Source: Solidesulfovibrio magneticus RS-1 (lineage in GTDB: Bacteria > Desulfobacterota > Desulfovibrionia > Desulfovibrionales > Desulfovibrionaceae). From it: a DNA stretch of 64,000 nucleotides. The DNA lies in assembly GCF_000010665.1 (NCBI RefSeq), contig NC_012796.1, forward strand, positions 1,827,501 to 1,891,500, written 5' to 3'. Numbering within the stretch: the first letter of the stretch is position 1; each line of letters begins with the position of its first letter. Of the stretch, positions 1 to 59,262 are shown one piece after another. The position numbers and the translations under genes are program-made. The notes below the pieces were generated by a model. The model saw only the letters and a list, made by a program, of their open reading frames with translations. It was not told where the DNA came from and did no database searches.

Positions 1-2196
<2,196 letters not shown>

Positions 2197-2241
2197 TTTG
2201 CCAACAGACAATCCCATCCCTTATTTTAACTTATATATTTG

Positions 2242-2358
2242 TCCTGGTGGTCATAGAGGAGGGGGTACACCCGACCCCATTCCGAACTCGGAAGTTAAGC
2301 CCTCCTTCGCCGATGATACTGCATATTCTTGTGTGGGAAAGTAGGTCGCCGCCAGGGC
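2242..2358 (+). rRNA. rrf: 5S ribosomal RNA
   Basis: This is a ~116-base gene 45 bases after the 23S 3' end. The terminal stem pairs CCTGGTGG at the start with CCGCCAGGG at the end. The internal block CCGAACTCGGAAGTTAAGC is the standard 5S loop B/helix III sequence. It completes the usual 16S-23S-5S order of an rrn operon. Confidence 0.96.
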
Positions 2359-2369
2359 TACTTTTCAAA

Positions 2370-2405
2370 AAGCCCCCGAATCGAAAGATTCGGGGGCTTT
2401 TTTTA
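2370..2405 (+). terminator. Intrinsic terminator of the rRNA operon
   Basis: AAAGCCCCCGAATC pairs with GATTCGGGGGCTTT around a short GAAA-type loop and is followed by a run of seven Ts. It sits 12 bases after the 5S gene and is the best-formed terminator in this end of the window. Confidence 0.95.
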
Positions 2406-2439
2406 TGGTTTCCGGGCCGGAAAGAGGACGGGGGTAGGG

Positions 2440-2520
2440 GAGGGACCACGGTCACGGTCACTGTAGGGGACGCGGACACGGTCGGGGACACGACCACGGA
2501 TACGGACGAGGTCAGGGGAT
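2440..2520. repeat. Low-complexity GGACACGG-like tract after the rRNA operon
   Basis: A degenerate run of GGACACGG / CGGTCACGG / GGATACGG units covers about 80 bases. It produces translated frames of Thr-Val-Ser repeats on either strand, which is why ORFs appear here. No coding signal or ribosome site is visible. The rest of the 2406-2696 gap holds only the ribosome-binding site of the next gene. Confidence 0.5.
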
Positions 2521-2696
2521 AGGTTTGCTTTTCTGCCGGCCAGCAGGCAAGAGGAGATGAAAGCACGGGGAAGACACTTGGGGCATGTCGCTAGGCATCC
2601 AGTCAGTATCCAGACATAACGATATGGACTGGAGTTTCATGACGACTCCGTGGTTGCCCGCCATTGCAGAAAAGATTCCTGCGATAAGGAGGCTTC

Positions 2697-3395
2697 ATGG
2701 AACGCACCGCGAACATGTTGGACGCTGTCCCCGACCTGTGGCAGGAAGCATCCGTGGCCGTCTGGGCGGAGCCGGAATCACGCCGTATCGCGTCACTCAA
2801 CTTCGATGACGCTCAGGTAGATAATGTCGCTTCGATCTCCCTCGCGGACGCGCCCCATGCCTCCTTGGGCCTGGACCCGGTATCCCTCAACCGATTTGTC
2901 CTGTGCCTGCTGGCGGCGGACTGGGCCTGCTACCCTGATCCGGCCAACCGCGAAGCTTACCCGCATCTCCAACACGCGGTCACGGTCTTTCCCAAAGGCT
3001 TTCGCCTTTGGACGGCCGGCGCAGGCGGCTGTATCCTGCCTATCGGCTATTCGGCCTTTCACCCTATTTCCCCGGCCACCTTCGCCGTCCTGCGCGACGC
3101 GCCGCAAACCATCACCAATCGTCGCCAGATCACACCCCAGCCCCAGACCGCGTCCGGTGAGCAGTACCTCTATCTCTATAACATCGGCATCCTGCCCCGG
3201 TTCCATCGCACCGAGGCAAGCCAGGCGCTCATGCGGGCGTTTCGCGAAGACCTGGATGCCACGGCGCATCGCGGGCTTGCCGCCATCATCGTCTCGCCTG
3301 ACGGCCAGCGTGTCATCGAACGGTTCGGACTGCGCCAATCAGGCGTCATCACCCATGACGGCCACGAAGAACTGGCGTACGTGAGCGACGAGTAA
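2697..3395 (+). CDS. GNAT-like acetyltransferase-fold protein
   Basis: This 232-residue soluble protein has no signal peptide or membrane segment. The C-terminal half, about residues 160-222, resembles the GNAT acyl-CoA-binding core: a strand (LYLYNIGILPRFH), a helix after it (QALMRAFREDL), then a strand and the pattern ERFGLRQSG, where GNAT proteins keep their 'FyxklGF' element. The N-terminal 150 residues are not recognised. The substrate is unknown. The start is set by a strong AAGGAGG site 6 bases upstream. It is the first gene after the rRNA operon and is followed by an exporter gene 100 bases on, with no visible operon link. GNAT assignment is an inference from motif spacing and could be wrong. 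Confidence 0.6.
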   Translation: MERTANMLDAVPDLWQEASVAVWAEPESRRIASLNFDDAQVDNVASISLADAPHASLGLDPVSLNRFVLCLLAADWACYPDPANREAYPHLQHAVTVFPKGFRLWTAGAGGCILPIGYSAFHPISPATFAVLRDAPQTITNRRQITPQPQTASGEQYLYLYNIGILPRFHRTEASQALMRAFREDLDATAHRGLAAIIVSPDGQRVIERFGLRQSGVITHDGHEELAYVSDE

Positions 3396-3495
3396 CTGCT
3401 GATCTTGTACTGTATCCCAGCTCGCCCGCATTGACAGCCGTCGCCGCCGGGTATAGCCGGCTTTCGAAACATTTCCCGGCACGCACGGAGTTCCC

Positions 3496-4134
3496 ATGCT
3501 TGGCATTCACGATCTGTGGCTTTTTATTGTCTCGGGCATCCTGTTCAACATGGCTCCCGGCCCGGACGTCATTTACGTCGTCAGCCGCAGCGCCGGACAG
3601 GGGGCCAAGGCCGGCATGACAGCGGCCCTGGGCATCGGGGCCGGTTGCTGCGTGCATATCCTGGCCGCCGCCGTGGGACTTTCAGCCGTGCTGGCCGCCT
3701 CGGCTACGGCCTTTTCCGTGATCAAACTGGTGGGCGCGGCCTATCTCGTGTATGCTGGCGTGCGCATGATCCTTGGCGCGCGAAAAAAAACAGCGCCCGA
3801 GGAAATTCCTCAGACGCCTGAAATCCGGCATCGTGGCATCTTCGTCCAGGGCTTTCTCACCAACGCGCTGAACCCCAAGGTGGCGCTGTTTTTCCTGGCC
3901 TTCCTGCCCCAGTTCATCGATCCGGCCGCGCCGCGCAAGGCCCTGGCCTTTGCCGTCTTGGGCGGCATCCTCAACTGCACCGGTACGACCTGGAATCTGC
4001 TCCTGGCCTGGTCCACGGCGCGCGTCGCCGGCGGCCTTGGCCGCGCCCGGCGGCTTGGCCCCTATCTCACCCAGGGGGCCGGTGCCTTGTTCGTGGCCTT
4101 TGGCGTCAAGCTGGCCCTGTCCGAACAATCCTGA
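3496..4134 (+). CDS. LysE/RhtB-family amino-acid exporter
   Basis: This 212-residue inner-membrane protein has about six hydrophobic segments. The N-terminus carries the family signature with NMAPGPD at residues 18-24 and a Gly-rich second helix (AALGIGAGCCVHILAAAVGL). A mid-protein NALNPKVALFFLAFLPQF block is near residue 120 and is diagnostic of RhtB/LysE translocators. Family members export amino acids such as homoserine, threonine, lysine or leucine; the substrate cannot be read here. The start follows GGAG at a good distance. The gene converges with the minus-strand permease gene, with 72 unremarkable bases between. Confidence 0.9.
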   Translation: MLGIHDLWLFIVSGILFNMAPGPDVIYVVSRSAGQGAKAGMTAALGIGAGCCVHILAAAVGLSAVLAASATAFSVIKLVGAAYLVYAGVRMILGARKKTAPEEIPQTPEIRHRGIFVQGFLTNALNPKVALFFLAFLPQFIDPAAPRKALAFAVLGGILNCTGTTWNLLLAWSTARVAGGLGRARRLGPYLTQGAGALFVAFGVKLALSEQS

Positions 4135-8883: not shown

Positions 8884-10337
8884 GGCGTTTCCCCGCGTCC
8901 GGCGCACTGGGACACCACGGCCTGGACCTCGGCCAGGGACAGCCCGTGACGCCTGGCCAGTTCCCGGCAGTCCTCCAGTTCGGGCTTGGAGCGAAGTCGT
9001 ACGCCATTTCGGGCGGCGTGCTTCATGGTCACCGGCCCCAGGGGCGTGTCCAACCGGGAAAAGGTCCGGTCGAGCACGGTTTTCTCCAAACGCAGGACTT
9101 TGACGCCAAGCGTTGTGGTGTGGCGAAAGACCAAGTCCTTGAAGCGTTCTTCGTCGGCGGCGGCGCAGAGCAGCGACAAGGTCGTGCCGGGCCGGTTTTT
9201 CTTCATGAGGATGGGCGTGAAATGCACGTCCATGGCCCCGTGTTCCATAAGCACGTCCATGGCCACGCCCAGGGCCTCGGCGGTCATATCGTCGATGTTG
9301 CAGACAAGCAGCCGGGCGTCGTCCGGGGCCTTGGCCGCCGTGGCGTCCGGGGCTTCGGCCTTGGCTAGGTGGACCCGCAGGACGTTTGGCCGCTCGGTGT
9401 GGCGGTGGCCGATGCCGTAGGCGGTTTTTTCAAGGGTCAGGGCGGGCGTGGCGGTGAAGCGGGTGGACAGGGTCGCCAGGATGGCCGCGCCGGTGGGGGT
9501 GGTGGCCTCGTGGGGTGTGCCGCCCCGGGTGGTGGGAACGCCGGCCAGGATTTCCGTGGTGGCCGGGGCCGGCACGGGCATGAGGCCATGGGCGCAGTGC
9601 ACAAAACCGCCGCCAAGCTCCACCGGCGAGGCCCAGACCGCGTCCACGCCCAGGGCATGATAGCAGATGGCCGCTCCCACGATGTCCACAATGGAATCAA
9701 CGGCCCCGACCTCGTGGAAATGCACCTCGTCCACCGCCTTGCCGTGGACCTTGGCCTCGGCCTCGGCCACCTTGCGGAAGATGGCCAGGCTCGTGTCCTG
9801 GACCGGTTCGCTTAAGGAACTTCCCCGGATGATGGCCTCAATGGCGGCCAGGTTGCGGTGGGGGGCGTGGCCGTGGCTGTGAGAACCGTGGACGTGCTCT
9901 TGCCCAGGCTCGTGGTGGTGGCCGTCGTGGCTATGACGGTGGCCATGGTCGTGGGCTGCCGCGTGGGCATGACGCTTCGCCTGGGCTTCGTGGTGATGCC
10001 CGCCATGGACATGACCGTGCTCTTGCTCCTGGCCGTGTTCATGATGTCTGCCGTGCCCGTGTTCGTGGCCGTGCGGTCCGCCGTGGTCGTGTCCATGTAT
10101 CTCGCCATGTTCGTGATGGCCGCCGGCCGCGTCGTCGGCAGTTAGACGCACGTCCACGCGCAGGCCGTGGATGCCGTTTCGGGCGTCCTCGCCGACGTCC
10201 AGCCGAAATTCCTCATCCAGACCAAGCTTGGACAGTTCGGCCCGCAGGAAGTCGGGCGAAACGCCAAGGCCCATCATGGCGGCCAGGTTCATGTCGCCGG
10301 ATACGCCCGCGAAACAGTCGTAGAACAGTATTTTCAT
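8880..10337 (-). CDS. larC: LarC, nickel-inserting chelatase (single uninterrupted frame)
   Basis: This 485-residue protein inserts nickel into the pincer nucleotide using CTP. The N-terminus KILFYDCFAGVSGDMNLAA is the LarC/DUF111 signature, and later blocks include EVHFHEVGAVDSIVDIVG and CNIDDMTAEALGVAMDVL. Residues 74-160 form a very His-rich stretch (GHDHGGPHGHEHG and similar), much longer than in most homologues, probably a nickel store or chaperone. In Lactobacillus plantarum larC needs a programmed frameshift to join two frames; here the frame is continuous. It is first in the lar set and overlaps larE by four bases. Confidence 0.95.
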   Translation of the reverse strand: MKILFYDCFAGVSGDMNLAAMMGLGVSPDFLRAELSKLGLDEEFRLDVGEDARNGIHGLRVDVRLTADDAAGGHHEHGEIHGHDHGGPHGHEHGHGRHHEHGQEQEHGHVHGGHHHEAQAKRHAHAAAHDHGHRHSHDGHHHEPGQEHVHGSHSHGHAPHRNLAAIEAIIRGSSLSEPVQDTSLAIFRKVAEAEAKVHGKAVDEVHFHEVGAVDSIVDIVGAAICYHALGVDAVWASPVELGGGFVHCAHGLMPVPAPATTEILAGVPTTRGGTPHEATTPTGAAILATLSTRFTATPALTLEKTAYGIGHRHTERPNVLRVHLAKAEAPDATAAKAPDDARLLVCNIDDMTAEALGVAMDVLMEHGAMDVHFTPILMKKNRPGTTLSLLCAAADEERFKDLVFRHTTTLGVKVLRLEKTVLDRTFSRLDTPLGPVTMKHAARNGVRLRSKPELEDCRELARRHGLSLAEVQAVVSQCAGRGETP

Positions 10338-10457: not shown

Positions 10458-11663
10458 TCAGTCGAGGCCGGCCCGGAAGTGGTTTTTGAGCGCCTCCACC
10501 TCGGCTTGGAAGTTGGGGCCTTCGAAGGCGGCGGCGACCTTTTCCAGTTGGTCGGGGATGGCGATCTGCTGGGGACACTTCTCCAGACACTCGCCGCAGG
10601 CCACGCACTGGGAGGCGTAGCTCTGCTCGCCGTTTGAGGTCACGCCGCTGCCAAAGGCGGTGTACATCATCTTGGCCCCGGAGTTCTCGCCAAACATGTG
10701 CAGCTGATTAAAGAAGTTGAAGCAGTTCGGAATGTTGACGCCCATTGGGCAGGGCAGGCAGTAGGCGCAGCCAGTGCAGCCCACCGGCATGAGTTCTTGG
10801 TATTTGCGGGCCACCCGGTCCACCAGTTCCAGCTCGGCCGGGGTCAGGGAGCCGGGGGCGGCCACGGCGGCCACGGCCAGGTTCTGGGCGATATGGGCCT
10901 CGACGTTCATGCCCGAGAGCACCACCGTCACCTCGGGATGGTTCCAGATCCAGCGCAGCGCCCATTCCACCGGCGTGCGCTTGGTCGCGGCCTCGTCCCA
11001 CAGGGCGGCCACGGCCGGCGGCGCTTCGGGCAGGGCCAGGGTGCCGCCGCGCAGCGGCTCCATGATGATCACGCCCAGGCCCTTGGAGGCCGCGTACTCC
11101 AGGCCCGCCGTGCCGGCCTGGTACTCTTGGTCCAGGAAGTTGTACTGGATCTGGCAGAAGACCCAGTCGTAGCCGTCCACGATGCGGGCGAAATCCTTGC
11201 CCTCGCCGTGGAAGGAAAACCCGGCGTTGACGATGCGGCCGTCGGCCTTGGCCGCGTCCAGGAACTCCCGCACGCCAAGGGCGACCAGTTCGTCCCAGGA
11301 CGAGCCTTTGAGGGTGTGCAGCAGATAGTAATCGATGTGGTCCGTGCCCAGGCGCTCCAGCTGGGCGTTTAAGTACCGGTCCATGTCCTCCCGGGATTGG
11401 ACGAGCCAGGAGGGCAGCTTTGTGGCCACCTTGACGCGCTGCCGGTAGCCGTCTTTGAGGGCCTTGCCGAGCAGGGGTTCGCTTGCGCCGCCGTGGTAGG
11501 GCCAGGCCGTGTCCACGTAGTTGACGCCCTGGTCGATGGCGCTGCGGATCTGGTCGATGGCTCGGGGTTCGTCGATGACGCCGTCCACGGTCGGCATCCG
11601 CATGCAGCCGAAACCAAGAATGGACAGTTCGTCGCCGGTCTTGGGCATTTTTCTGTAGAGCAT
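10458..11663 (-). CDS. Aldo/keto reductase with C-terminal Fe-S cluster domain
   Basis: This 401-residue protein has the AKR TIM barrel over the first ~280 residues, with the catalytic set visible as Asp and Tyr in YVDTAWPYHGG, Lys in VKVATKLPSW and His in DYYLLHTLKG. The C-terminal part adds two ferredoxin-like cysteine clusters, CTGCAYCLPCP at about 295-305 and CVACGECLEKCP at about 350-361. Electrons may thus come from ferredoxin as well as a nicotinamide nucleotide. The start ATG 11663 is preceded by GAGGAG. The AraC-type gene just upstream on the same strand probably regulates it; both promoters carry the same 16-bp motif. The substrate is unknown. Confidence 0.9.
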   Translation of the reverse strand: MLYRKMPKTGDELSILGFGCMRMPTVDGVIDEPRAIDQIRSAIDQGVNYVDTAWPYHGGASEPLLGKALKDGYRQRVKVATKLPSWLVQSREDMDRYLNAQLERLGTDHIDYYLLHTLKGSSWDELVALGVREFLDAAKADGRIVNAGFSFHGEGKDFARIVDGYDWVFCQIQYNFLDQEYQAGTAGLEYAASKGLGVIIMEPLRGGTLALPEAPPAVAALWDEAATKRTPVEWALRWIWNHPEVTVVLSGMNVEAHIAQNLAVAAVAAPGSLTPAELELVDRVARKYQELMPVGCTGCAYCLPCPMGVNIPNCFNFFNQLHMFGENSGAKMMYTAFGSGVTSNGEQSYASQCVACGECLEKCPQQIAIPDQLEKVAAAFEGPNFQAEVEALKNHFRAGLD

Positions 11664-11784
11664 TGTTTCTCTCCTCGTCGCGGGCGGTTGGCCCCGGATG
11701 GTTGCCGCGTTTGTCGGCATGGTGCGACGAGAGGCACCTTATCCGAGGGCAGCGGGCCGATGAACGTCCATTCCTGCTGAAAAA

Positions 11785-11800
11785 TTGCCTGATCCTCGCA
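11785..11800 (+). promoter_or_regulatory. Candidate AraC operator upstream of the aldo/keto reductase
   Basis: TTGCCTGATCCTCGCA lies 122-137 bases upstream of the reductase start. It matches, at 15 of 16 bases and in opposite orientation, a site before the AraC-family gene itself (12851-12866). Two near-identical 16-mers in exactly the two promoters of a regulator/target pair are the expected pattern of an AraC operator. Confidence 0.6.
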
Positions 11801-11842
11801 CGGGTGGGCGTCGCCCTCTTCCGTCGCTTCCGTCGTGCCGTC

Positions 11843-12778
11843 TTAGTCGCCGGCCAGCCGGCGCAGGCTTTTGATGTCGCGAAGCGGCGGCGCGCCGAAA
11901 AGCCGGCTGTATTCCCGGTTGAACTGGGAATGGCTCTCGTAGCCAACAGCAAAGGCCGCGCCGGCGGCGTCGATGCCCCCGGCCAAGAGCAGCCGCCGGG
12001 CCTCGTGCAGGCGCAGCCACTTCTGGTACTGCAGCGGACTCATGGCCGTCAGTTCCCGGAAATGGCGGTGGAAGGTCGAAACGCTCATGCGCGCCTGTTC
12101 GGCCACCTCCTCAACCCGCAGGGCTTCCTTGAAATGGCCCTTGAGCCAGTCGATGGCCACGGCGATCTGGCTGCCGCGCGAGCCGGCCGCCGCGATCTGG
12201 CGCAGACGCGCCCCCTGGTCGCCGGTCAGGAGCCGGAAAAGGATCTCGCGGTACACCAGCGGGGCCAGCGCCGGGATGCTCTCGGGTTCGTCCAAAAGCG
12301 CCACCAGCCGTTGCAGGGCGTCCAGAAGCGGCAGGGTGACCCGGCCCACGGCCATGGCCCGGTTGGTCTGCCGCTCGGGCAGGGGCGGCGGCTTGCTGTC
12401 CACCACCGTCTGGGCCACTTCGCGCTGATCAAGGCGCAGCACCAGGCCGAGATAGGGCGTCTCGGGACTGGCCTCGACGATCTGGGACATCACCGGCAAG
12501 TCCACCGAGGTGATGAGATAGTTGTACGGATCGTACTGGTAGACGTCCTCGCCCAGGTACACCCGCTTGGCCCCCTGGACGATGCAGCACAGGCTCGGCT
12601 CGTGCACGTAGCAGGTCTGGGCCGTGGGCTCGCCGCGCCGCACCAGGGTCAGGGCCGGGATGGCCGTGTCCAGCACGTCGCAAACGGCGGTGCGCCGGGC
12701 GATGCTTTCGGCCAGCCCCTCGCGGGCGACCTTGATGTCTTCGGGTTCGACCCGGCGGGAAGCGCCCTGATCGGTCAT
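11843..12778 (-). CDS. AraC-family transcriptional regulator
   Basis: This 311-residue protein has an N-terminal AraC_N-type sensing domain over about residues 25-185 (for example CCIVQGAKRVYLGEDVYQYDP) and a C-terminal double helix-turn-helix over about 205-300. The latter includes VEEVAEQARMSVSTFHRHF and the second-motif block AAFAVGYESHSQFNREYSRLFG. Regulators of this layout commonly sit beside and activate aldo/keto reductase or alcohol dehydrogenase genes in response to reactive carbonyls. Here the reductase gene follows 179 bases downstream on the same strand. A copy of the shared 16-bp motif is 73-88 bases upstream, suggesting autoregulation. Confidence 0.93.
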   Translation of the reverse strand: MTDQGASRRVEPEDIKVAREGLAESIARRTAVCDVLDTAIPALTLVRRGEPTAQTCYVHEPSLCCIVQGAKRVYLGEDVYQYDPYNYLITSVDLPVMSQIVEASPETPYLGLVLRLDQREVAQTVVDSKPPPLPERQTNRAMAVGRVTLPLLDALQRLVALLDEPESIPALAPLVYREILFRLLTGDQGARLRQIAAAGSRGSQIAVAIDWLKGHFKEALRVEEVAEQARMSVSTFHRHFRELTAMSPLQYQKWLRLHEARRLLLAGGIDAAGAAFAVGYESHSQFNREYSRLFGAPPLRDIKSLRRLAGD

Positions 12779-12981: not shown

Positions 12982-13010
12982 TTGACAATGACAATCGTAA
13001 TCAATTATGG
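12982..13010 (+). promoter_or_regulatory. Promoter with overlapping Fur-box-like sequence
   Basis: TTGACA (12982-12987) is a perfect -35 box; 17 bases on is TTATGG as a weak -10. GACAATGACAATCGTAATC at 12984-13002 matches the 19-bp consensus GATAATGATAATCATTATC at 15 positions by my count. Binding there would cover the promoter and repress under iron sufficiency. It precedes the diguanylate cyclase gene by about 80 bases. Confidence 0.5.
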
Positions 13011-13083: not shown

Positions 13084-14190
13084 ATGGCGAGTCAGGACGA
13101 CGAAAGTTTGCGCGAGGCGCGGGCCAGACTGGAGCAGGCCGGGGACGACCCGGCCGAGGCTTTGGCCCTGGCCGCCGATTTTCTGCTTTTGGCCGAGCGC
13201 ATGGCCGGCAAGGCCGAGAAGCTGGCCCGCATCGGCGACCGCACCCAGGCCCGCATGGTGGACCTCAACCGCCGCCTGCGCCAGCAGGAAGAGCGCTACC
13301 GGGGCATTTTCGAGAATTCCACCGAAGGCATCTTTTTGGCCGACGCCGAGGGCGCGCTCATGGCCGTCAATCCTGCCCTGGTCGGCCTGTTGCGACCGGG
13401 CGAGGTGGCCGACGATCCGGCCACAGCCACGCCGGCCCTGGCCGGTGACGTCCAATCCTTGTTCCATGATCCGACCGACTATCAGGCCTTTGCCCAAAAA
13501 CTGGCGGCAAGGGGCCAGGTGCGGCGCATGGAGGCCCGGCTGGCCACCCCGCGCGGGCCGGTCTGGTGTCTGGTGGGCGCGGCCCTGGTCGAGCCCGACG
13601 GCCATGTGGTCGGCATGACCCAGGACATCTCGGCCCGAAAGGCCCTGGAAGAGGAGCTATTGCGCCTGGCCGCCTCGGACCCGCTGACCGGCCTGGCCAA
13701 CCGCCGGGGCTTTTTCGAGGGCGCGGCCCGGATGCTCGGCATGGCCCGGCGCTGCGGCACGCCGCTGTCCATGATCATGCTCGACATCGACCATTTCAAG
13801 GCCGTCAACGACGCCTATGGCCACGACGCCGGGGACGCCGTGCTGCGGGCCGTGGCCGGAAGGTTGCGCGAAAGCCTTCGTGTGTCCGATCTGGCCGGCC
13901 GGGTGGGCGGCGAGGAGTTCGCCGTCCTGTGCCCGGGCACGGACCTGGCCGGCGGCGTCGAACTGGCCGAGCGCCTGCGTCTGGCCTTGGAGGACATGGT
14001 AGTGACGGCCGATTGCCGCGCCGTCAAGGTGACGGCCAGTTTTGGCGTGGCCCAGTGCCGCGATGATCGTGACGCCGCGCCAAGCGCCTGCCTGACCCGG
14101 GCCGACCGGGCGCTGTACGCCGCCAAGCGCGGCGGCCGCAACCGGGTTTGCCTGGAGTCCGACGGTTCCCTTGGCCCCGGGGCCGTGTGA
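13084..14190 (+). CDS. PAS-GGDEF diguanylate cyclase (SiaD-like)
   Basis: This 368-residue protein lacks membrane segments. It has an N-terminal helical region rich in Ala/Arg (about 1-70), a PAS domain (about 75-190, with YRGIFENSTEGIFLADAEG), and a GGDEF domain (about 200-360). The active site is GGEEF at 275-279, and the product-inhibition I-site RVSD lies at 266-269 with the exact five-residue spacing, so it should make c-di-GMP and be feedback inhibited. In Pseudomonas the Sia system ends in a cyclase, SiaD, activated by SiaC; here the cyclase comes before siaA-siaB-siaC. The start at 13084 removes a long unsupported extension of the open frame. Confidence 0.9.
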   Translation: MASQDDESLREARARLEQAGDDPAEALALAADFLLLAERMAGKAEKLARIGDRTQARMVDLNRRLRQQEERYRGIFENSTEGIFLADAEGALMAVNPALVGLLRPGEVADDPATATPALAGDVQSLFHDPTDYQAFAQKLAARGQVRRMEARLATPRGPVWCLVGAALVEPDGHVVGMTQDISARKALEEELLRLAASDPLTGLANRRGFFEGAARMLGMARRCGTPLSMIMLDIDHFKAVNDAYGHDAGDAVLRAVAGRLRESLRVSDLAGRVGGEEFAVLCPGTDLAGGVELAERLRLALEDMVVTADCRAVKVTASFGVAQCRDDRDAAPSACLTRADRALYAAKRGGRNRVCLESDGSLGPGAV

Positions 14191-14200
14191 TGCTTCTCTC

Positions 14201-14223
14201 AAAACATGACGCAGGCATGTTTT
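14201..14223. terminator. Short inverted repeat after the cyclase gene
   Basis: AAAACATG (14201-14208) and CATGTTTT (14216-14223) form an 8-bp stem with a 7-base loop, 10 bases after the stop codon. It is A/T-rich with T at the 3' side, so it may be a weak terminator or a protein site. The remaining bases up to 14483 hold a promoter-like A/T stretch and no supported gene. Confidence 0.4.
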
Positions 14224-14390
14224 CAGGATGTCGCAAAATCTGGCGGTGTTGTTTGTTGTGGTGGTGGCCTTGGCATACGTAAAGCCGGTATACGGCGCTT
14301 GGGCCGTCCCGTGCGGTGAGACGGAGTGCGACAACCTGTGGCCGGAGCCTTGCGGCGCGAAAATCCTCAAAGCCGTCGCAATGTTGCCAT

Positions 14391-14419
14391 TTAATGATAT
14401 TGACATCAATTTTCAATTT
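14391..14419. promoter_or_regulatory. AT-rich operator/promoter-like stretch before siaA
   Basis: TAATGATATTGACATCAATT and the following TTCAATTTCAAT stand out against GC-rich surroundings. ATTGACATCAAT (14399-14410) is a small palindrome. It resembles a Fur site only weakly (about 12 of 19 consensus positions), so I give it as a candidate control region for the sia genes. Confidence 0.3.
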
Positions 14420-14483
14420 CAATAAAGAGGCTCAGGCAAAGGGGTGATCCAGAACACTGGAAGGCCGCAACGGCAAGGAGGCC

Positions 14484-15710
14484 ATGGTGCGCAGATTCAT
14501 TCGAAAATGGCGGGGCGGGGAGGCCGGGGAAGGCGTCATGAAAGCGGGCCTGGGCACGCCGGCCAAGCTTGGTCTGATCCTCTTTCCTTTCGTGGTTGTC
14601 GCTCCCTTGGGCCTCATGTTCGGCCACGCCGCCCTGGACGAGGCCACGCTCAAGGCCGTGCTGGCCGGCTACGTCACCCTGGGCGTGATCCTCTATTACC
14701 CCCTGGTGCGCCTGGCCGGGAAATCCATTGTTTTCGATCAGGTCGGCCGGCTGGTGGACAGCTGCATGCGCATCAAGCAGGGCTGCTACGACACCGCCAC
14801 GGCCCCGCCGGCCCGGGGCGAGTCCGGTGATTTTCCGGGTCTGGCCCGGCAAATCTACTGGCTTGGCCATGCCGTGGCCGTGCGCGAGCGACGCTTAAAC
14901 GACACCCTGGTGAACCTGGAGACGGCGCGCCGCCAGATCGAATCGAGCATCGACTACGCCGCCCGCATCCAGCGCGCCTTTTTGTCCGATCCGGCCGAAC
15001 TGGCCTCGGTGTTTCCCGACAGCTTCGTGTGGTGGGACCAGCGCGACGTGGTCGGCGGCGACGTCTTTTTCCTGGCCAAAAGCGCCGGCGGCGTCTTTCT
15101 CGGCATCGGCGACTGCACCGGCCATGGCGTGCCTGGCGCGTTCATGACGCTTATCGCCAAGGCCGCCCTGGACCGGGTGCGCCTGGAACGCTTCGAGGGC
15201 GATCCGGGCGGCGTTCTGGCCGAGGCCCACCGCTACATGCGCCGCTGGCTCATCGCCGAGGGCGGCGAGGTGGACGACGGCATGGATATGGGACTGGTTT
15301 ATTTCGACGCCGACGACGCCTCGCGGCTGGTCTACGCCGGGGCGCGCCGGCCGCTTTGGGTCGAGCGCGGCGGCGAGGTCGAGGAGATCGGCGCGGACCG
15401 CCTGGGCCTGGGCTACGCCAAAACCCCGGAGGACGCGGTCTTTGCCAACGTGGCCGTGGAGTTGGCTGCGGGCGATACGCTCTTTCTTTTTTCCGATGGC
15501 CTCACCGACCAGATCGGCGGCGTACGGGGCTTGCCGCTGGGCAAAAAGCCCCTTCGCCAATGGCTGGCCGAGGCGGCCGGCGCGCCCCTGGTAGAGCGTC
15601 GGCAGGCCCTGGTCACCATTTTTGAAAACCACAGGGGCCGCGCCTCCCGGCGCGACGACGTGGCCGCCCTGGCCGTGCGCCCCGTTGCCAAGCAAGGAGT
15701 CAATGCATGA
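14484..15710 (+). CDS. siaA: SiaA-like PP2C/SpoIIE phosphatase without large periplasmic sensor
   Basis: This 408-residue membrane phosphatase has two hydrophobic helices at about 28-47 and 58-78 separated by only about ten residues, then a linker and a coiled region, then a SpoIIE/PP2C domain from about residue 165. Metal-binding motifs are visible: DVVGGDVFF, GIGDCTGHGVPGAFMT, LFLFSDGLTDQIGG and RRDDVAALAV. SiaA removes phosphate from SiaC. Pseudomonas SiaA has a large periplasmic sensing domain that is absent here. AAGGAGG is only 2 bases from ATG 14484; GTG 14487 may be used instead. Its stop overlaps the siaB start (ATGA). Confidence 0.88.
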   Translation: MVRRFIRKWRGGEAGEGVMKAGLGTPAKLGLILFPFVVVAPLGLMFGHAALDEATLKAVLAGYVTLGVILYYPLVRLAGKSIVFDQVGRLVDSCMRIKQGCYDTATAPPARGESGDFPGLARQIYWLGHAVAVRERRLNDTLVNLETARRQIESSIDYAARIQRAFLSDPAELASVFPDSFVWWDQRDVVGGDVFFLAKSAGGVFLGIGDCTGHGVPGAFMTLIAKAALDRVRLERFEGDPGGVLAEAHRYMRRWLIAEGGEVDDGMDMGLVYFDADDASRLVYAGARRPLWVERGGEVEEIGADRLGLGYAKTPEDAVFANVAVELAAGDTLFLFSDGLTDQIGGVRGLPLGKKPLRQWLAEAAGAPLVERRQALVTIFENHRGRASRRDDVAALAVRPVAKQGVNA

Positions 15711-16255
15711 CAGGCGGGCCGCAATTCGACAAATGCCGGGAAATGCTGCGCGAGGGCGGCGTGGTCCTCTACTTCAAGGGACCGGTGACCCAGGAGGTGG
15801 TGGAGGGCCTTGGCTCCATGATCCGGCGCAAGGTGGATTTCGAGATCGCCAACCGTTCCCGGGCCTCCCAGGCTTTCGCCGTGCTGGTGGAACAGCTGCA
15901 AAACGTGCTGCGCTACGCCGCCGACGCCGTGGACATGGCCAGCGGCCGCATGGCTTCCGGGGAACTCATCATCCGCCTGGACCCGGCCGGCCTGTGCCTG
16001 AGCTGCGGCAACCTCATCACCAGGGACCTGGGGCCGCGCATCCGGGAACGCCTCGACGCCCTGGCCGGCGTTGACAAGGACGGCCTCAAGGCCCTGTACA
16101 AGGCCGCCCGCCAGCAGGGGCCGGACGAGCAGTCGCGCGGCGCGGGACTGGGGTTTCTGGAGATGGCCCGGCGGGCCGTTTCGCCCATGCGCTACGAGAT
16201 CGAGGCCGTTTCCGACGAGCTGGCCTGGTTTTCCCTGGATGTCGTCATCGCCTAA
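15707..16255 (+). CDS. siaB: SiaB-family protein kinase
   Basis: This 182-residue soluble protein of the SiaB (DUF6272) family has a GHKL-like layout: the helix LVEQLQNVLRYAAD near residues 62-75 and the glycine motif SRGAGLGFLEMARR near 144-157, which should close over ATP. SiaB phosphorylates the small partner SiaC, opposing SiaA. ATG 15707 overlaps the siaA stop and is preceded by AAGGAGT at 6 bases, so it is translationally coupled. The siaC gene follows after 195 bases that contain a repeat element. Confidence 0.88.
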   Translation: MTGGPQFDKCREMLREGGVVLYFKGPVTQEVVEGLGSMIRRKVDFEIANRSRASQAFAVLVEQLQNVLRYAADAVDMASGRMASGELIIRLDPAGLCLSCGNLITRDLGPRIRERLDALAGVDKDGLKALYKAARQQGPDEQSRGAGLGFLEMARRAVSPMRYEIEAVSDELAWFSLDVVIA

Positions 16256-16274
16256 AAGCGTTCTTCAAACAGAC

Positions 16275-16355
16275 GCTCGTGTTATTGTAAAATCATGAGT
16301 TGCAGGTGGTTGTCGGCGAAGTGCCGGATGCTCTTTTTAAGGACGCGACACGAGC
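16275..16355 (-). repeat. 81-bp inverted-end repeat element (copy A) between siaB and siaC
   Basis: Terminal inverted repeats GCTCGTGT (16275-16282) and ACACGAGC (16348-16355) bound the unit. Read on the minus strand it starts CTCGTGTCGCGTCCTTAAAA, the same end as the two 108-bp elements at 58042 and 60356. The interior differs from those copies, so this is a shorter, related family member. It lies inside the likely siaA-siaB-siaC operon. Confidence 0.65.
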
Positions 16356-16450
16356 CGGGAAGACCGCCGCCATTGCAGCCGCCGCGCAAGGTCCGGCCTG
16401 GAAGCGTTTTCAGGGCCGGGACCGGCGCAGGCCATAGGAGAGAAGTTTTC

Positions 16451-16831
16451 ATGCAGCCGTTTGTCTGCGCGCCCACGCGCTCCACGCCGGAAGTCCACTT
16501 TGACGCGGCCAGCCATCGCCACCGCATGAAGGGCGAATGTTATCCGGAAAACGCGGCCGCGTTTTTCGGGCCGCTTTTCACCTGGGTCAAGGCCTATCTG
16601 GCCGCCAAACCGGCCGGCCCGGTCGTGTTCGATCTGGAACTGGTCTATTTCAACTCGTCCTCGTCCAAGGCTCTGCTCGACCTCTTCGAGATCCTGGAGC
16701 GCGCCGCCGCCTCGGGCACGAACATCACCGTCAATTGGCGCTACGACAAGGATAACGACATCGCCTGCGAATGCGGCGAAGAGTTCGCCGAGGACGCCAA
16801 GGCGCTCATATTTACGCTGCTGGCGCTCTAA
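16451..16831 (+). CDS. siaC: SiaC-family regulatory phosphoprotein
   Basis: This 126-residue protein of the SiaC/DUF1987 family has an SpoIIAA-like alpha/beta fold. The motif YFNSSSSKALLDLF at 66-79 is the conserved phosphorylation loop. The Pseudomonas protein has a threonine (T68) at the position that is Ser69 here. Unphosphorylated SiaC binds and activates the diguanylate cyclase; SiaB and SiaA set the phosphorylation state. The start is fixed by AGGAGAG upstream. A chemoreceptor gene follows 98 bases later. Confidence 0.9.
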   Translation: MQPFVCAPTRSTPEVHFDAASHRHRMKGECYPENAAAFFGPLFTWVKAYLAAKPAGPVVFDLELVYFNSSSSKALLDLFEILERAAASGTNITVNWRYDKDNDIACECGEEFAEDAKALIFTLLAL

Positions 16832-16839
16832 CAAGAGGG

Positions 16840-16890
16840 AGATGCCTCCGGCGGCCGGGAGGGGGTAACCCCCTCCCGGACCCTCCCTGA
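16840..16890 (+). repeat. GATGCCTCCGGCGGC-type repeat with hairpin
   Basis: GATGCCTCCGGCGGCCGGG starts at 16841, just after the siaC stop, followed by the stem CCGGGAGGGGG (16855-16865) and CCCCCTCCCGG (16869-16879). The same opening sequence follows queF (53380) and murJ (60542, minus strand). It is probably a terminator or attenuator cassette copied through the genome. Confidence 0.65.
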
Positions 16891-16929
16891 AAGGGGGGCA
16901 ACAAGGATCAAGGAGCGAGGGGGGACGAC

Positions 16930-18321
16930 ATGGATGACGTCGCCATGGTGGCGGATGGGCCGGAAACGGTTCGGAAAATGGCGGCCGGCCGGCCGCTTTG
17001 CTGGCGCGCGCCCCATCCGGCCTCCCTGGCCCTGGCCGGTCTTGTGGCCGTGGCGGCCGGGGGTGCGGCCGGGGCCTGCGTCCTGTGGCAGATGCCGCCG
17101 GTTGCTGCCGTTTTGTTGGTCGGGCTTTCGGCCCTGTGCCTGACCCTGGCCGGCCTGGCTTTGCTGGCGGAAATGCCGGCGCGCCTCATGGCCGACCGGC
17201 TGGCCCAGGCGGCGGAGGGCATTCAAGCCGAGGGGCCGCCGCCTCTGGCGCTTGTCGTCGGCCCTCTGGCCGGGTTGTGGCCGGCGGCCGGTGAGGTGGC
17301 CGGGCGGGTGGCCGACCTTGGGGCCGAAGCCGAGGCTCAGCGCCGCCAGGCCTTCACCGAAAATCGCCAGGCGCTCAAAGCCCTGCGCGACGCGACCAAG
17401 GCCCGCAAGCAGGCCGACCAGGCGCGCGCCGCCGCCGTGGCCGAGGTGGTGGGCGAGGTGCGCGGCCATGTGGACGCCGCCTCGGGTCGGACCCGGTCGC
17501 TGCTGGCCGATAGTTCCGCCGCCGTGGAGCTCGTGGCCGGCCAGTCGGCCAGCCTCGGCGAGGCCATGGACCTCCTCGACCTGGCCCTGGCCGCCGTGCG
17601 TCGGGCCTCCGATGCCGCCCTGGCCGCCGCCGCCAAGGCCAACGCCGCCGCCGCCACAGCCGCCAGCGGCCGCCGCCTGGAAGAGGGGCTGGGGCAGGGG
17701 TGCCGCACCTTGTCCGCGGCCATGGACGGGCTTTCAACCTCCTTTTCCGAACTCCTTGGCGGCTTGCGCTTTGCCGCCGACACCGGCGAAGCCATTGCCG
17801 ACATCGCCGACCAGACCAACATGCTGGCGCTTAATGCCGCCATCGAGGCCGCCCGGGCCGGCGACCACGGCCGGGGATTCGCCGTGGTCGCCGACGAGGT
17901 GCGCCGGCTGGCCGAGCGCTCCAAGGAGGCCGCCGCCCAGGCTGCCGCCCGGTTGGGCCGGGTTCTGGCCCAGGCCGAGGGCAACGCCGGCCTTTTGACC
18001 GAAGCCAACGCCGCCGCCGGCGAGTTCCTCGACCTGTCCGGCCGGCTAGGCGCGGCCCTGGCCTCCATCGCCGGCGACGCCGAGGCCGCCCGGACCCAGG
18101 GGCAAGGCAGCGCCGAGGCCATTGGGCAGTCCCTGGCTTCCTTGGACCGGGCCGGTCAGGCCCTGGCCGAAACCCTGGCCAAGGCCACGGCCATCGAAGA
18201 ATCGTCCCTGGCCGGCCAGGACCATGCCCGCCGGGTGGAAGAAGCCCTGGCCGGCGTGGACAGCCTCATGGCCCGGCTATGCGGCACGACGGCGGCGGAC
18301 GGATCTGTGGCCTGTAATTGA
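16930..18321 (+). CDS. Membrane-anchored chemoreceptor-like protein without periplasmic domain
   Basis: This 463-residue protein has two hydrophobic helices at about 31-50 and 55-80 with almost no loop between, so nothing large projects into the periplasm. A long Ala-rich coiled coil follows, then the MCP signalling hairpin whose tip ([18 protein letters not shown]) lies near residue 293. The protein should dock CheW/CheA but senses the membrane or cytosol, or a partner protein. It follows siaC by 98 bases on the same strand and may belong to the Sia operon; this pairing is unusual. The start has AAGGAG upstream. Its stop lies in the palindrome that precedes feoA. Confidence 0.88.
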
Positions 18322-18341
18322 AAATTACAGCCATTATCAAT
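18313..18341 (+). promoter_or_regulatory. Fur-box-like operator upstream of feoA
   Basis: TGTAATTGAAAATTACA at 18313-18329 is a perfect 7-bp palindrome around GAA, and the overlapping GAAAATTACAGCCATTATC matches the Fur consensus at 14 of 19 positions by my count. It lies about 35-60 bases before the feoA start and overlaps the stop of the preceding gene. Iron repression of feoAB through Fur is well established in many bacteria. Confidence 0.6.
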
Positions 18342-21232: not shown

Positions 21233-21556
21233 ATGCAACTGAAAATGAAAATGCTTTTCGTTATCGTTAGTCTGGTGCTGGCCCTGCCCGGAGTTGCCCT
21301 GGCCCACACCGCCCTTTGCACCTGCTTTGACAACGCCGACGGCACCATCACCTGCGAAGGCGGCTTTTCCGACGGCTCCTCGGCCTCGGGCGTGAGCCTT
21401 ATCGTCAAGGACGGCGGGGGCAAGGTCATCGAACAAGGGGCCATGGACAAGACGTCCAAGTACACCTTCAAGAAGCCCGCCGGCGCGTACACAGTCGTTT
21501 TCGAGGCCGGCGAAGGCCACAAGATCGAGATCGACGGCAAAAAGATCCTGGAATAA
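21233..21556 (+). CDS. Small exported protein of the feo operon
   Basis: This 107-residue protein has a clear signal peptide (LFVIVSLVLALPGVALA, cleavage after ALA near residue 24), followed by HTALCTCFDNADG. The mature part looks like a small beta-sandwich (carboxypeptidase-regulatory-like): VSLIVKDGGGKVIEQG and GAYTVVFEAGEGHKIEI. The mature N-terminal His and two Cys (HTALCTC) could bind metal. The gene follows feoB by 100 bases and precedes a second exported protein by 27 bases. A role as periplasmic accessory in metal uptake is inferred from context. Confidence 0.75.
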   Translation: MQLKMKMLFVIVSLVLALPGVALAHTALCTCFDNADGTITCEGGFSDGSSASGVSLIVKDGGGKVIEQGAMDKTSKYTFKKPAGAYTVVFEAGEGHKIEIDGKKILE

Positions 21557-21583: not shown

Positions 21584-22408
21584 ATGCAGCACAAAAAAAC
21601 CGTTGCCGGCGTTTTGGCCGCCCTGGCCTTGGCCCTTCCCGGCCTGGCCCTGGCCCACTTCCAGATGATCTACACGCCGGAAATCGCCCTGGACAAGGGC
21701 GGCGAAGTGGACATGCGCCTGGTGTTTACCCACCCCTTTGAGGCCGGGCATTCCATGGACATGGGCGCGCCGGAGCAGTTTTTCATGGTCTACCAGAAAG
21801 GCGGCGAGGGCGAGCCGCAAAAGACCGACCTCAAGGCGGGGCTGGCCCCCATCGTCTGGAAGAGCCTGGGCAACACCGGCAAGGCCTACACCTTCAAGCA
21901 AAAGCTGCGTAGCCCCGGCGACTATGTTTTCGCCCTGGTCCCGGCGCCCTATCTTGAGCCCGAGGAAGGTGCCTACATGCAGCAGATCACCAAACTGGTG
22001 CTCAACGTCGGCGGCATCCCCGGCAACTGGGACAAGCCGGTGGGCCTGCCCGCCGAGATCGTGCCCCTGGCCAAGCCCTACGGCCTCTACACCGGCAACG
22101 TGTTCGTGGGCCAGGTCTTGTCCGAGGGCAAGCCCGTGCCCAATGCCGAGATCGAGGTGGAATACTTGAACCACGCCCCGAACATGGCCGCCAACAGCTT
22201 CGACAAGAAAGCCGCCGTGGCCGCCCCTCACGACTGCTTCATCACCCAGGCCATCAAGGCCGACGCCAATGGCGTCTTCGTCTACGCCATGCCCAAGGCC
22301 GGCTGGTGGGGTTTTGCCGCCATGGGCGTGGGGCCGGTCAAAGAGTTCGAGGGCAAGGCCATGTCCCAGGACGCGCTCATCTGGGTCAAGGCCGTGGACA
22401 TGAAATAG
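21584..22408 (+). CDS. DUF4198-type periplasmic metal-uptake-associated protein
   Basis: This 274-residue exported protein has a signal peptide ending in LPGLALA, with mature start HFQMIYTPEIALD. The pattern of beta strands, including FTHPFEAGHSMDMGAPEQF and GDYVFALVPAPYLEPEEGAYMQQ, matches the DUF4198/NikK-like family, often found next to nickel or cobalt transporters. The mature N-terminal His and the internal His/Met/Asp residues may bind a divalent metal. Here it follows feoAB, which suggests iron rather than nickel; not proven. RBS AAGGAG is upstream. Confidence 0.8.
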   Translation: MQHKKTVAGVLAALALALPGLALAHFQMIYTPEIALDKGGEVDMRLVFTHPFEAGHSMDMGAPEQFFMVYQKGGEGEPQKTDLKAGLAPIVWKSLGNTGKAYTFKQKLRSPGDYVFALVPAPYLEPEEGAYMQQITKLVLNVGGIPGNWDKPVGLPAEIVPLAKPYGLYTGNVFVGQVLSEGKPVPNAEIEVEYLNHAPNMAANSFDKKAAVAAPHDCFITQAIKADANGVFVYAMPKAGWWGFAAMGVGPVKEFEGKAMSQDALIWVKAVDMK

Positions 22409-58254: not shown

Positions 58255-59262
58255 ATGATGTATTCCATTCAGATTTTGCGGATCATCGGCATGTTGATGA
58301 TCGTCTATATCCATGTCGGCGTCTACATGACGCTGGTGAACAACGTCGGCGATTCCCTCTTTCACGTCATCCCCGACGCGTACATGTGCAAGGCCTTCAT
58401 CTTTTTCAGCATCTCCGGCTTTATCATGGCCTTTCTCATCGACATCGGCTACCGCAACTTTCTGGTGCGGCGCATCCTGCGCGTCTATCCGACCTTCCTC
58501 ATCGCCTGCGGCCTGGCCATCGCCTTGCGCTATCTGCTTTTTGACCAGCTGCCGGGCAAGGACATGTTCCTGGCCATGACGCTTTTGCCCGTAGGCTTCG
58601 TGGATTATCCCCTCAAGATCGAATGGACGCTGATTTACGAAGTCTGCTATTATCTCATCATCACGCCCTTTGCTTTCCCCAAGACGCGACGCTACTTCGT
58701 GCCGTTTCTCTTTGTCTGGCTCGGCGTCATTTGCATCGCCTACTACGCTTCGGGCATCACGGCCTTTTACGTGCTGCCGCCCTGGAAGCGGCTGTTCGTC
58801 TCCTATGTCAACATCTACTTCATCACCGGGGCCCTGGCCTACCACGCCGCCAAGCGCCTGCGGTTCGACTGGTGGCCGGCCTATGTCCTGGCCATCCTGG
58901 CCAGCGCCGCCGTCACCGTGGCCACTTCGGACGCCTGGAAGCTTGAACCCTACAACATGAAACAGTTGGCCACCTGGAGCCTGTGCACCGCCGTGACGCT
59001 GGTTTCCCTGGTCAAGCTTGAAAACCATTTCCAGGCCCCCTGGGTGAAGGCCATCGGCCAGTGGGGCGACTACGCCTACGCCGTCTACCTGACCCACGCC
59101 CTGGTGGTTGGGGTCTTTTTCTCCTGGCTGGTCTACCGGTACGGCTGGCAGCTCGACAACCGGGCGGCGTTTCTTGCCGTGGGCCTGATTCTCGTCGTGG
59201 GCTATGGCCTGGGCCGGCTCGACGCCGCCGTGCACGGCTATTTCAAGCGGAAATTCGCCTGA
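58255..59262 (+). CDS. Acyltransferase-3 family membrane protein (OafA-like)
   Basis: This 335-residue membrane protein has about ten hydrophobic helices. It begins MMYSIQILRIIGMLMIVYIHVGVYMT, in which Arg and the YIH sequence match the first-helix catalytic His/Arg pattern of acyltransferase-3 proteins, and contains FSISGFIMAF and RRILRVYPTFL. The family transfers acetyl or other acyl groups from the cytosol to sugars or polysaccharides at the cell surface. ATG 58255 is preferred over the longer frame because AGGTGA lies 7 bases before it. It pairs with an SGNH esterase. Confidence 0.9.
   Translation: MMYSIQILRIIGMLMIVYIHVGVYMTLVNNVGDSLFHVIPDAYMCKAFIFFSISGFIMAFLIDIGYRNFLVRRILRVYPTFLIACGLAIALRYLLFDQLPGKDMFLAMTLLPVGFVDYPLKIEWTLIYEVCYYLIITPFAFPKTRRYFVPFLFVWLGVICIAYYASGITAFYVLPPWKRLFVSYVNIYFITGALAYHAAKRLRFDWWPAYVLAILASAAVTVATSDAWKLEPYNMKQLATWSLCTAVTLVSLVKLENHFQAPWVKAIGQWGDYAYAVYLTHALVVGVFFSWLVYRYGWQLDNRAAFLAVGLILVVGYGLGRLDAAVHGYFKRKFA

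Follow-up and report, generated by a model that had tools for sequence, protein, structure and literature searches.

The 64,000-nucleotide stretch of the sulfate-reducing bacterium Solidesulfovibrio magneticus RS-1 analyzed here (the window, part of the 5,248,049-bp contig NC_012796.1 in a genome of 5.3 Mb) carries a Sia-type partner switch, in which the genes for a diguanylate cyclase, a phosphatase (SiaA), a kinase (SiaB) and a phosphoprotein (SiaC) are followed by the gene for a methyl-accepting chemotaxis protein (MCP). We found the arrangement to be genuine, a version of the Sia switch that recurs in an apparently iron-regulated context. The initial annotation had ended the unit with the MCP gene at 18321 and missed its Fur-box-like sites; the unit runs on through feoA, feoB and the genes for two small exported proteins, to about 22408. 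The interpretation that we favor, and regard as reasonably probable on sequence evidence, is that the region is a Fur-controlled (iron-starvation) cassette in which a Sia partner switch comes with a sensorless chemoreceptor and a ferrous iron transporter of its own.

The five genes cyclase-siaA-siaB-siaC-MCP are all intact, and the same order recurs in relatives within the genus. Searches with Pfam and NCBIfam models gave, in gene order, PAS plus GGDEF, SpoIIE/PP2C (SiaA-like), the SiaB family, the SiaC family and the MCP signaling domain. SiaB scored 148.8 against a cutoff of 85 for subfamily NF038262 and 104 against 225 for the equivalog NF038264, and SiaC scored 140.2 bits against 24.5 for PF09345 and 106.7 against 150 for the NCBIfam equivalog. 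All four equivalog scores (SiaA, SiaB, SiaC and SiaD) fell below their cutoffs, showing that the RS-1 proteins are relatives of the Pseudomonas aeruginosa proteins and not those proteins themselves. Against solved structures, the PP2C part of SiaA matched 6k4e with an E value of 1.2e-44, SiaB matched 6kko_A at 2.6e-22 and SiaC matched SiaC (6k4f, 6kko) at 2.4e-23; on reading, the acidic residues of the PP2C part look intact. At the site of Thr68 in P. aeruginosa SiaC (LYLNTSSIK), the RS-1 protein reads VYFNSSSSK, that is, NSS instead of NTS, as do 40 of 42 SiaC rows from relatives (L084 has NTS, and one L091 copy fits neither). Among named relatives, the closest SiaC is that of S. magneticus UBA7700 (96%), with 82 to 87% in Desulfovibrio sp. 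UBA12339, S. aerotolerans DSM 16695 and Desulfovibrio sp. DV.

Both membrane proteins lack a sensing part, as the initial annotation had noted. By a hydropathy threshold, SiaA has two membrane helices (residues 29-47 and 59-77) with 11 residues between them, and the MCP has two (33-51 and 61-79) with 9 between them, spacings that leave no space for a periplasmic domain. The 658-position SiaA model was matched from position 302 only, and no ligand-binding domain was matched in the MCP in a Pfam search. The MCP scored 91.5 bits against a cutoff of 34.6 for PF00015 and has an intact signaling tip.

Evidence for iron control came from the Fur-box-like sites. The delta-proteobacterial Fur box is given as WTGAAAATNATTTTCAW, and in Desulfovibrio such boxes form pairs shifted by 6 bp, in Rodionov 2004 (PMC545781). 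With the 21-bp double form TGATAATGATAATCATTATCA and up to 6 mismatches, the only matches in 64 kb began at 12983, 14395, 18319 and 21240/21246; the 19-bp form gave one extra match, at 58293 (6 mismatches). A shuffle test of the region of the 12983 site gave a p value of 0.003, the smallest possible with 300 shuffles. The stricter pattern TGAWWWTGAWWWTCAWWWTCA (up to 3 mismatches) had five window matches at three places, all in the cassette, and none in 100 shuffles. Across the genome it had 33 matches, compared with 3 for a reversed control; two of the 33 were named, by eye, one lying before another feoAB (L103) and one before a flavodoxin-like gene (L100). Both feoAB and flavodoxin are predicted Fur targets in Desulfovibrio (PMC545781). 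An AraC-type regulator and an Fe-S aldo/keto reductase are encoded on the minus strand at 10458-12778; as these genes diverge from the intergenic stretch that holds the 12983 site, this site could serve them too.

We compared a first set of 41 siaC loci (the window and L053-L092) with a second, fresh set of 21, used as a check and made up of L093 and 20 of 24 new siaC loci (four of genus g5, in G254, G263, G264 and G268, were left out, as was the family genome G075 from the locus reading). Genes of the first set were called with a simple codon model, so that gene starts there are approximate. SiaA proteins were classed as short, or sensorless, below 450 residues and as long above 500 residues; the first set held 26 short and 11 long ones and four loci without a nearby SiaA. 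Two close helices were present in 25 of the 26 short proteins (one helix in L056), and in the long class the helices lay more than 140 residues apart in seven, were absent in three and were cut in one. Scoring a site when at least 15/21 positions matched TGATAATGATAATCATTATCA in the 600 bp that precede the first core gene, we found one in 19 of 25 assessable short loci versus none of 10 assessable long loci, and in two of the four SiaA-less loci (L081 and L086). In the second set, 8 of 9 assessable short loci had a site (L093 was cut) versus 1 of 9 assessable long loci (L157, a weak 15/21 match; L161 was cut), a contrast that is partly one of lineage because the long loci there come from other families of the order; L164, with no same-strand SiaA, had no site. 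Both classes occur within genera g1, g29, g31 and g43 of the first set. When the upstream stretches of the first set were shuffled (36 of 41 were tested, five being cut, and some operon starts, including those of L078 and L080, were misplaced), p was no more than 0.007 in 19 of 22 short loci and in none of 10 long ones. Putative Fur boxes upstream of the switch are conserved in its relatives.

Iron genes themselves accompany the short class. Among 14 genomes of the genus, six have a FeoB 86 to 100% identical to that of the window and the other eight have only FeoBs of 40% or less; these six are the genomes with the sensorless Sia set, and a seventh siaC genome of the genus, G109, has a long SiaA. 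A family draw of 149 genomes yielded 35 with siaC over the cutoff; in 18 of these, a FeoB with at least 42% identity to that of the window is encoded no more than about 12 kb from siaC. Such a FeoB occurred in 34 genomes, linked to siaC in 18, with siaC elsewhere in 2 and without siaC in 14 (the family counts were made by hand from match lists). The position of the transporter genes varies: in the g1 loci long enough to show it (the window and L054-L057), feoAB comes after the MCP gene, in L078 it is found downstream, and in four loci (L071, L072, L077 and L080), which represent three genera, feoB stands between siaA and siaB and in three of these overlaps the siaA end. No FeoB was found in the fetched stretch of any of the 11 long-SiaA loci. 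Fur-family genes (one cluster member was tested) and P-type ATPase clusters (L067, L074 and L083) likewise accompany short SiaA; L074 also encodes a FeoA-domain protein, a relative of which occurs in L083. A chance neighborhood was ruled out by the recurrence in four genera and the co-occurrence.

Other neighbors of siaC were also seen. In L074 and L083, siaC is followed by a cluster for at least two P-type ATPases together with small proteins rich in Gly/Gln or Ala, as is the MCP gene in L067; these clusters may resemble ferrosome (fez) clusters. In the g5 loci (L063, L064, L066, L068-L070 and L169-L173), a MoxR-like ATPase gene follows siaC (the MCP gene in L172), accompanied in those read closely by a VWA/CoxE-like gene and a third gene; a Fur-regulated MoxR/CoxE operon is listed for Desulfovibrio in Rodionov 2004 (PMC545781).

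The window cyclase is likely to be the target of SiaC, as judged from its stalk motif. In the SiaC-SiaD crystal, SiaC contacts stalk motifs of SiaD that include R80, I81, S82, D83, R84 and Q86 (PMC8457831). SiaD has two such motifs; the RS-1 cyclase has one copy, KLARIGDRTQARMVDLN, at residues 46-62, corresponding to KVARISDRYQQMMRDLN in P. aeruginosa SiaD. By regular expression, 27 of 31 GGDEF proteins encoded near siaC have the motif; of the four misses, L067 is cut by the contig end and L088-L090 have a diverged form by eye. A profile built from 14 segments, that of the window cyclase included, had the window cyclase as its sole match in the RS-1 genome and matched all seven siaC genomes searched and none of five siaC-less members of the genus. 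Among 177,635 Protein Data Bank sequences, the profile placed SiaD (7e6g) at rank 2, with an E value of only 0.036, behind a designed coiled coil, and the match falls on the proximal SiaC-binding motif. The GGEEF and I-site read as intact, in agreement with the initial annotation, which had also thought it unusual that the cyclase comes first; among sensorless-SiaA loci of the first set, however, the cyclase gene lies upstream of siaA in 19 of 26.

SiaC-like stalk motifs were also seen outside GGDEF proteins. The gene after siaC in L058 (385-2505, relative to siaC) and L060 (385-2448) encodes, by eye, an HD-GYP phosphodiesterase with an N-terminal motif NRLVRMSDRF, the L058 copy of which is matched by the stalk profile, and L087 (359-1399) encodes a class III cyclase-like protein with QRLMRLSDRN. 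Several second-messenger enzymes may therefore be under SiaC control. In G108, a stalk-motif protein (G108:C12:173524) is encoded on another contig than siaBC-MCP-siaA, so a target may act in trans.

Of 62 loci, 12, from four genera, have an MCP gene directly 3' of siaC and on its strand, and all 12 have a sensorless SiaA (12 of 36 short loci versus 0 of 21 long ones). Eleven belong to the first set of 41 (g1, 6 of 6 short loci; g14, 2 of 2; g22, 3 of 6 short loci) and one to the second set of 21 (L172, g5). The gap from siaC is 98, 196 or 197 bp in RS-1-like genomes and -1 to 32 bp in eight other measured loci; the L053 gene is cut by a contig end and continues on L098. In L075, L079 and L082, the MCP stands between siaC and siaA. 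The 11 usable siaC-linked MCPs all have two helices, 7 to 22 residues apart, and 162 residues from an (R/K)(R/K)xAFxE segment to the signaling tip, a spacing that had already been noted when the L172 receptor was found and that it shares. A tree that also held 42 other MCPs placed the 11 on one side of a single branch (100/99; 100% of 200 bootstrap trees), and a first tree had grouped all 10 siaC-linked receptors (99/99); the 40 control MCPs were hand-picked from g1 and g22 only, plus two from g8, with unlinked g14 and g5 MCPs left out. An MCP coil profile scored 100 to 106 bits in all five searched genomes of the genus with the sensorless set (G150 was not among them) and at most 36 bits in eight without it, the high g1 scores arising partly by construction because the profile holds g1 rows. 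These results support the proposal of a complete Sia logic to which the MCP belongs. A terminator between siaC and the MCP gene, named at the outset as a finding that would speak against this, was rejected at the sequence level: none was listed by a sequence scan of the gap, and the hairpin at 16857-16877 has no T-run. In g16 and g31, a HATPase plus CheW protein is encoded after the cyclase, in the same operon, in place of the MCP.

"MCP" cluster labels in L060, L085, L087, L091 and L092 were not counted, the L060 and L092 proteins reading as PAS/STAS-type; candidates that lacked the signaling tip were dropped from the count. Two g8 loci, L166 and L168, encode an ordinary MCP with a large periplasmic domain on the same strand about 1.1 kb after siaC (1494-3674, relative to siaC) with its own Fur-box-like sites upstream (15-17/21), and these were not counted as directly following. 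The HATPase/CheW protein gene also follows the cyclase in L071, L072 and L077, where feoB lies between siaA and siaB (Pfam was run on the L077 copy).

Table 1. Positions of genes and sites in the window
Feature	Position	Strand	Remarks
Fur-box-like site TGACAATGACAATCGTAATCA	12983..13003	+	Upstream of cyclase; 17/21 to TGATAATGATAATCATTATCA
PAS-GGDEF diguanylate cyclase, SiaD role	13084..14190	+	Pfam/NCBIfam
Single SiaC-binding stalk motif KLARIGDRTQARMVDLN	13219..13269	+	SiaD counterpart KVARISDRYQQMMRDLN
RVSD (I-site)	13879-13890	+	Within cyclase; read from sequence
GGEEF	13906-13920	+	Within cyclase; read from sequence
Two overlapping Fur-box-like sites (14395/14401)	14395..14421	+	Upstream of siaA; 6-bp shift
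siaA-like PP2C/SpoIIE phosphatase	14484..15710	+	Start at 14538 also plausible
siaB-like kinase (DUF6272 / SiaB family)	15707..16255	+	
siaC-like phosphoprotein	16451..16831	+	Likely phosphosite Ser69 in NSSSS
Strong hairpin GGGAGGGGG-TAA-CCCCCTCCC	16857..16877	+	siaC-MCP gap; no T-run
MCP without periplasmic domain	16930..18321	+	Signaling tip intact
Fur-box-like site TGAAAATTACAGCCATTATCA	18319..18339	+	Upstream of feoA; 16/21; missed by stricter pattern TGAWWWTGAWWWTCAWWWTCA
feoA, 83 aa	18375..18626	+	Alternative TTG start 18318 in open reading frame list
feoB, ferrous iron transporter, 836 aa	18623..21133	+	
Small exported protein	21233..21556	+	Start overlapped by Fur-box-like sites 21240-21266
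Fur-box-like sites 21240/21246	21240-21266		Overlap start of first exported protein
Exported DUF4198 protein	21584..22408	+	

We propose that scarce Fe(II) would cause Fur to leave the boxes before the cyclase gene, siaA and feoA, and that the cyclase, SiaA, SiaB, SiaC, the MCP and FeoAB would then be made together, as the sites and their conservation suggest. By homology to SiaABCD and from the conserved motif, unphosphorylated SiaC would grip the single stalk motif of the PAS-GGDEF dimer and switch on synthesis of cyclic di-GMP (c-di-GMP), SiaB would phosphorylate SiaC, probably at Ser69, and so release it from the cyclase, and membrane-bound SiaA would dephosphorylate it. Because SiaA is without a sensing domain, the main input would be protein amount, which iron would set; the PAS domain, the membrane or the neighboring transporter may provide finer adjustment. 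The MCP would join the chemoreceptor array in iron-starved cells and bias it, such that settling (through c-di-GMP) and swimming shift together. Direct contact between the Sia proteins and the MCP is rather unlikely (about one chance in four), and co-expression alone could be the MCP's tie to Sia.

Several observations weigh against the favored interpretation. The 15-bp single-box form (up to 3 mismatches) also matches outside the cassette, at 10322, 24983 and 59019; six short loci of the first set (L070, L071, L072, L077, L080 and L083) have no site by the box rule, with a site elsewhere near the operon in L070, L072, L080 and L083, and L167 of the fresh set has a sensorless SiaA and no Fur-box-like site. 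The cyclase stalk motif has Gly at the position of SiaD Ser82, a contact of SiaC Thr68. The siaB-siaC (195 bp) and siaC-MCP (98 bp) gaps could hold promoters, terminators or processing sites; in the former, one terminator-like site (16313) and one promoter-like site (16264) were listed by scans that found 8 terminators versus 5.8 expected and 4 promoters versus 0.5 expected. Poor conservation of the MCP next to siaC, which the initial annotation had named as a refutation, was not borne out, since the adjacency holds in all six sensorless loci of the genus (that of the window among them) and in part of the loci of three other genera. It is, however, absent from 24 of 36 sensorless loci, so that the module can dispense with the MCP. 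As to the receptor, a reduced tree without the g14 receptors and five long-branch rows no longer held the g1 and g22 receptors in one group (a single g1 plus g22 group was not rejected; p-AU, 0.396), and the g1 receptors sit on a long branch of unusual composition. A profile of the presignaling coil built without g1 recovered the g1 receptor in none of five genomes, and the reverse test found one of five, weakly (E value, 0.007); one coil profile for all Sia-linked MCPs was rejected on these leave-genus-out tests. The receptors of g14, g22 and g5 probably form a single family, to which the RS-1 receptor is assigned with less confidence in view of the failed or weak leave-genus-out tests, the long g1 branch and the grouping lost without g14.

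The Fur sites by themselves would account for the co-location, and Fur may turn on the Sia c-di-GMP switch and, separately, an iron-related chemoreceptor, with promoters and timing in common and no protein contact between the two. This is possible, if on balance unlikely. The frequent absence of the MCP favors it, as do the periplasmic-domain MCPs of L166 and L168 with their own sites; none of the siaC-linked MCPs has the SiaC-binding stalk motif, and SiaC binding to the MCP through that motif was rejected. It is opposed by the 12 loci with a sensorless MCP directly after siaC, at gaps down to -1 bp, which is not a random spot in an iron cluster, and by the HATPase plus CheW protein that g16 and g31 have instead, in the same operon. 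That the MCP is a receptor of FeoB or iron uptake (iron taxis) with no tie to Sia seems very unlikely: the MCP gene does have feoAB after it in the window and in L054-L057, and downstream in L078, but the sensorless MCP always touches siaC, and L075, L079 and L082 have it between siaC and siaA with no FeoB found in the fetched stretches.

A different reading makes FeoB the missing sensor. The sensorless SiaA would read FeoB activity in the membrane and the MCP (the CheW-domain kinase-like protein in g16 and g31) would relay it to the array, so that one Fe(II) transporter complex would set both c-di-GMP and swimming; the loci with feoB between siaA and siaB, overlapping the end of siaA in three, suggest it, and we consider it improbable. 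The initial annotation instead had the chemoreceptor array or the membrane feed a signal into Sia through the MCP. The conserved adjacency, the absence of sensors from both SiaA and the MCP, and the nearness of Sia and Che2 in P. aeruginosa (see below) speak for this account. It is hardly to be expected when 24 sensorless loci do without an MCP directly after siaC and when iron, acting on transcription through Fur, is the better supported input. Control by iron and Fur remains the best supported input to Sia, on the strength of the sites and their conservation.

The RS-1 system shares with P. aeruginosa SiaABCD the homologous phosphatase, kinase, phosphoprotein and cyclase and the SiaC-binding stalk motif on the cyclase. 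It differs in that SiaA is without the N-terminal part of about 300 residues of the model, the cyclase comes first, has a PAS domain and carries one stalk motif instead of two, Ser replaces Thr68, and Fur-box-like sites, an MCP and feoAB are attached. The siaA gene of P. aeruginosa is presumably PA0172. The siaB gene is PA0171 and siaC PA0170 (PMC4768041) and the Che2 chemosensory cluster is PA0173-PA0179 (PMC13024080), which makes Sia and Che2 near neighbors as judged by locus numbers alone. The Desulfovibrio Fur regulon, in the part of PMC545781 available, has the same type of site, with two boxes shifted by 6 bp, and its predicted members include feoAB, flavodoxin, a P-type ATPase, a MoxR-like operon and a GGDEF gene, "gdp," whereas no siaABC genes or MCP are named in that part. 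Like other MCPs without a ligand-binding domain, the RS-1 receptor has two helices, a short loop and an intact signaling tip; unlike them, its type is tied to siaC in four genera and stands apart from the 42 other MCPs in the tree. Among the titles listed in a search of the open literature, none dealt with SiaC together with FeoB or with SiaB/SiaC in Desulfovibrio, and the word "iron" does not occur in the available part of PMC7647112.

Taken together, these results would place a Sia-type switch in a defined physiological context, namely iron limitation under Fur, in which loss of the sensor domain goes with a different mode of control. The recurrent set of a Fur box, a sensorless SiaA, often FeoB and sometimes an MCP or CheW partner allows a direct test of whether a c-di-GMP partner switch is coupled to the chemotaxis array, in an organism used for the study of iron biominerals, and it draws attention to the Sia/Che2 neighborhood of P. 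aeruginosa. If the favored interpretation is true, cells of this kind may tie iron hunger to settling or moving.

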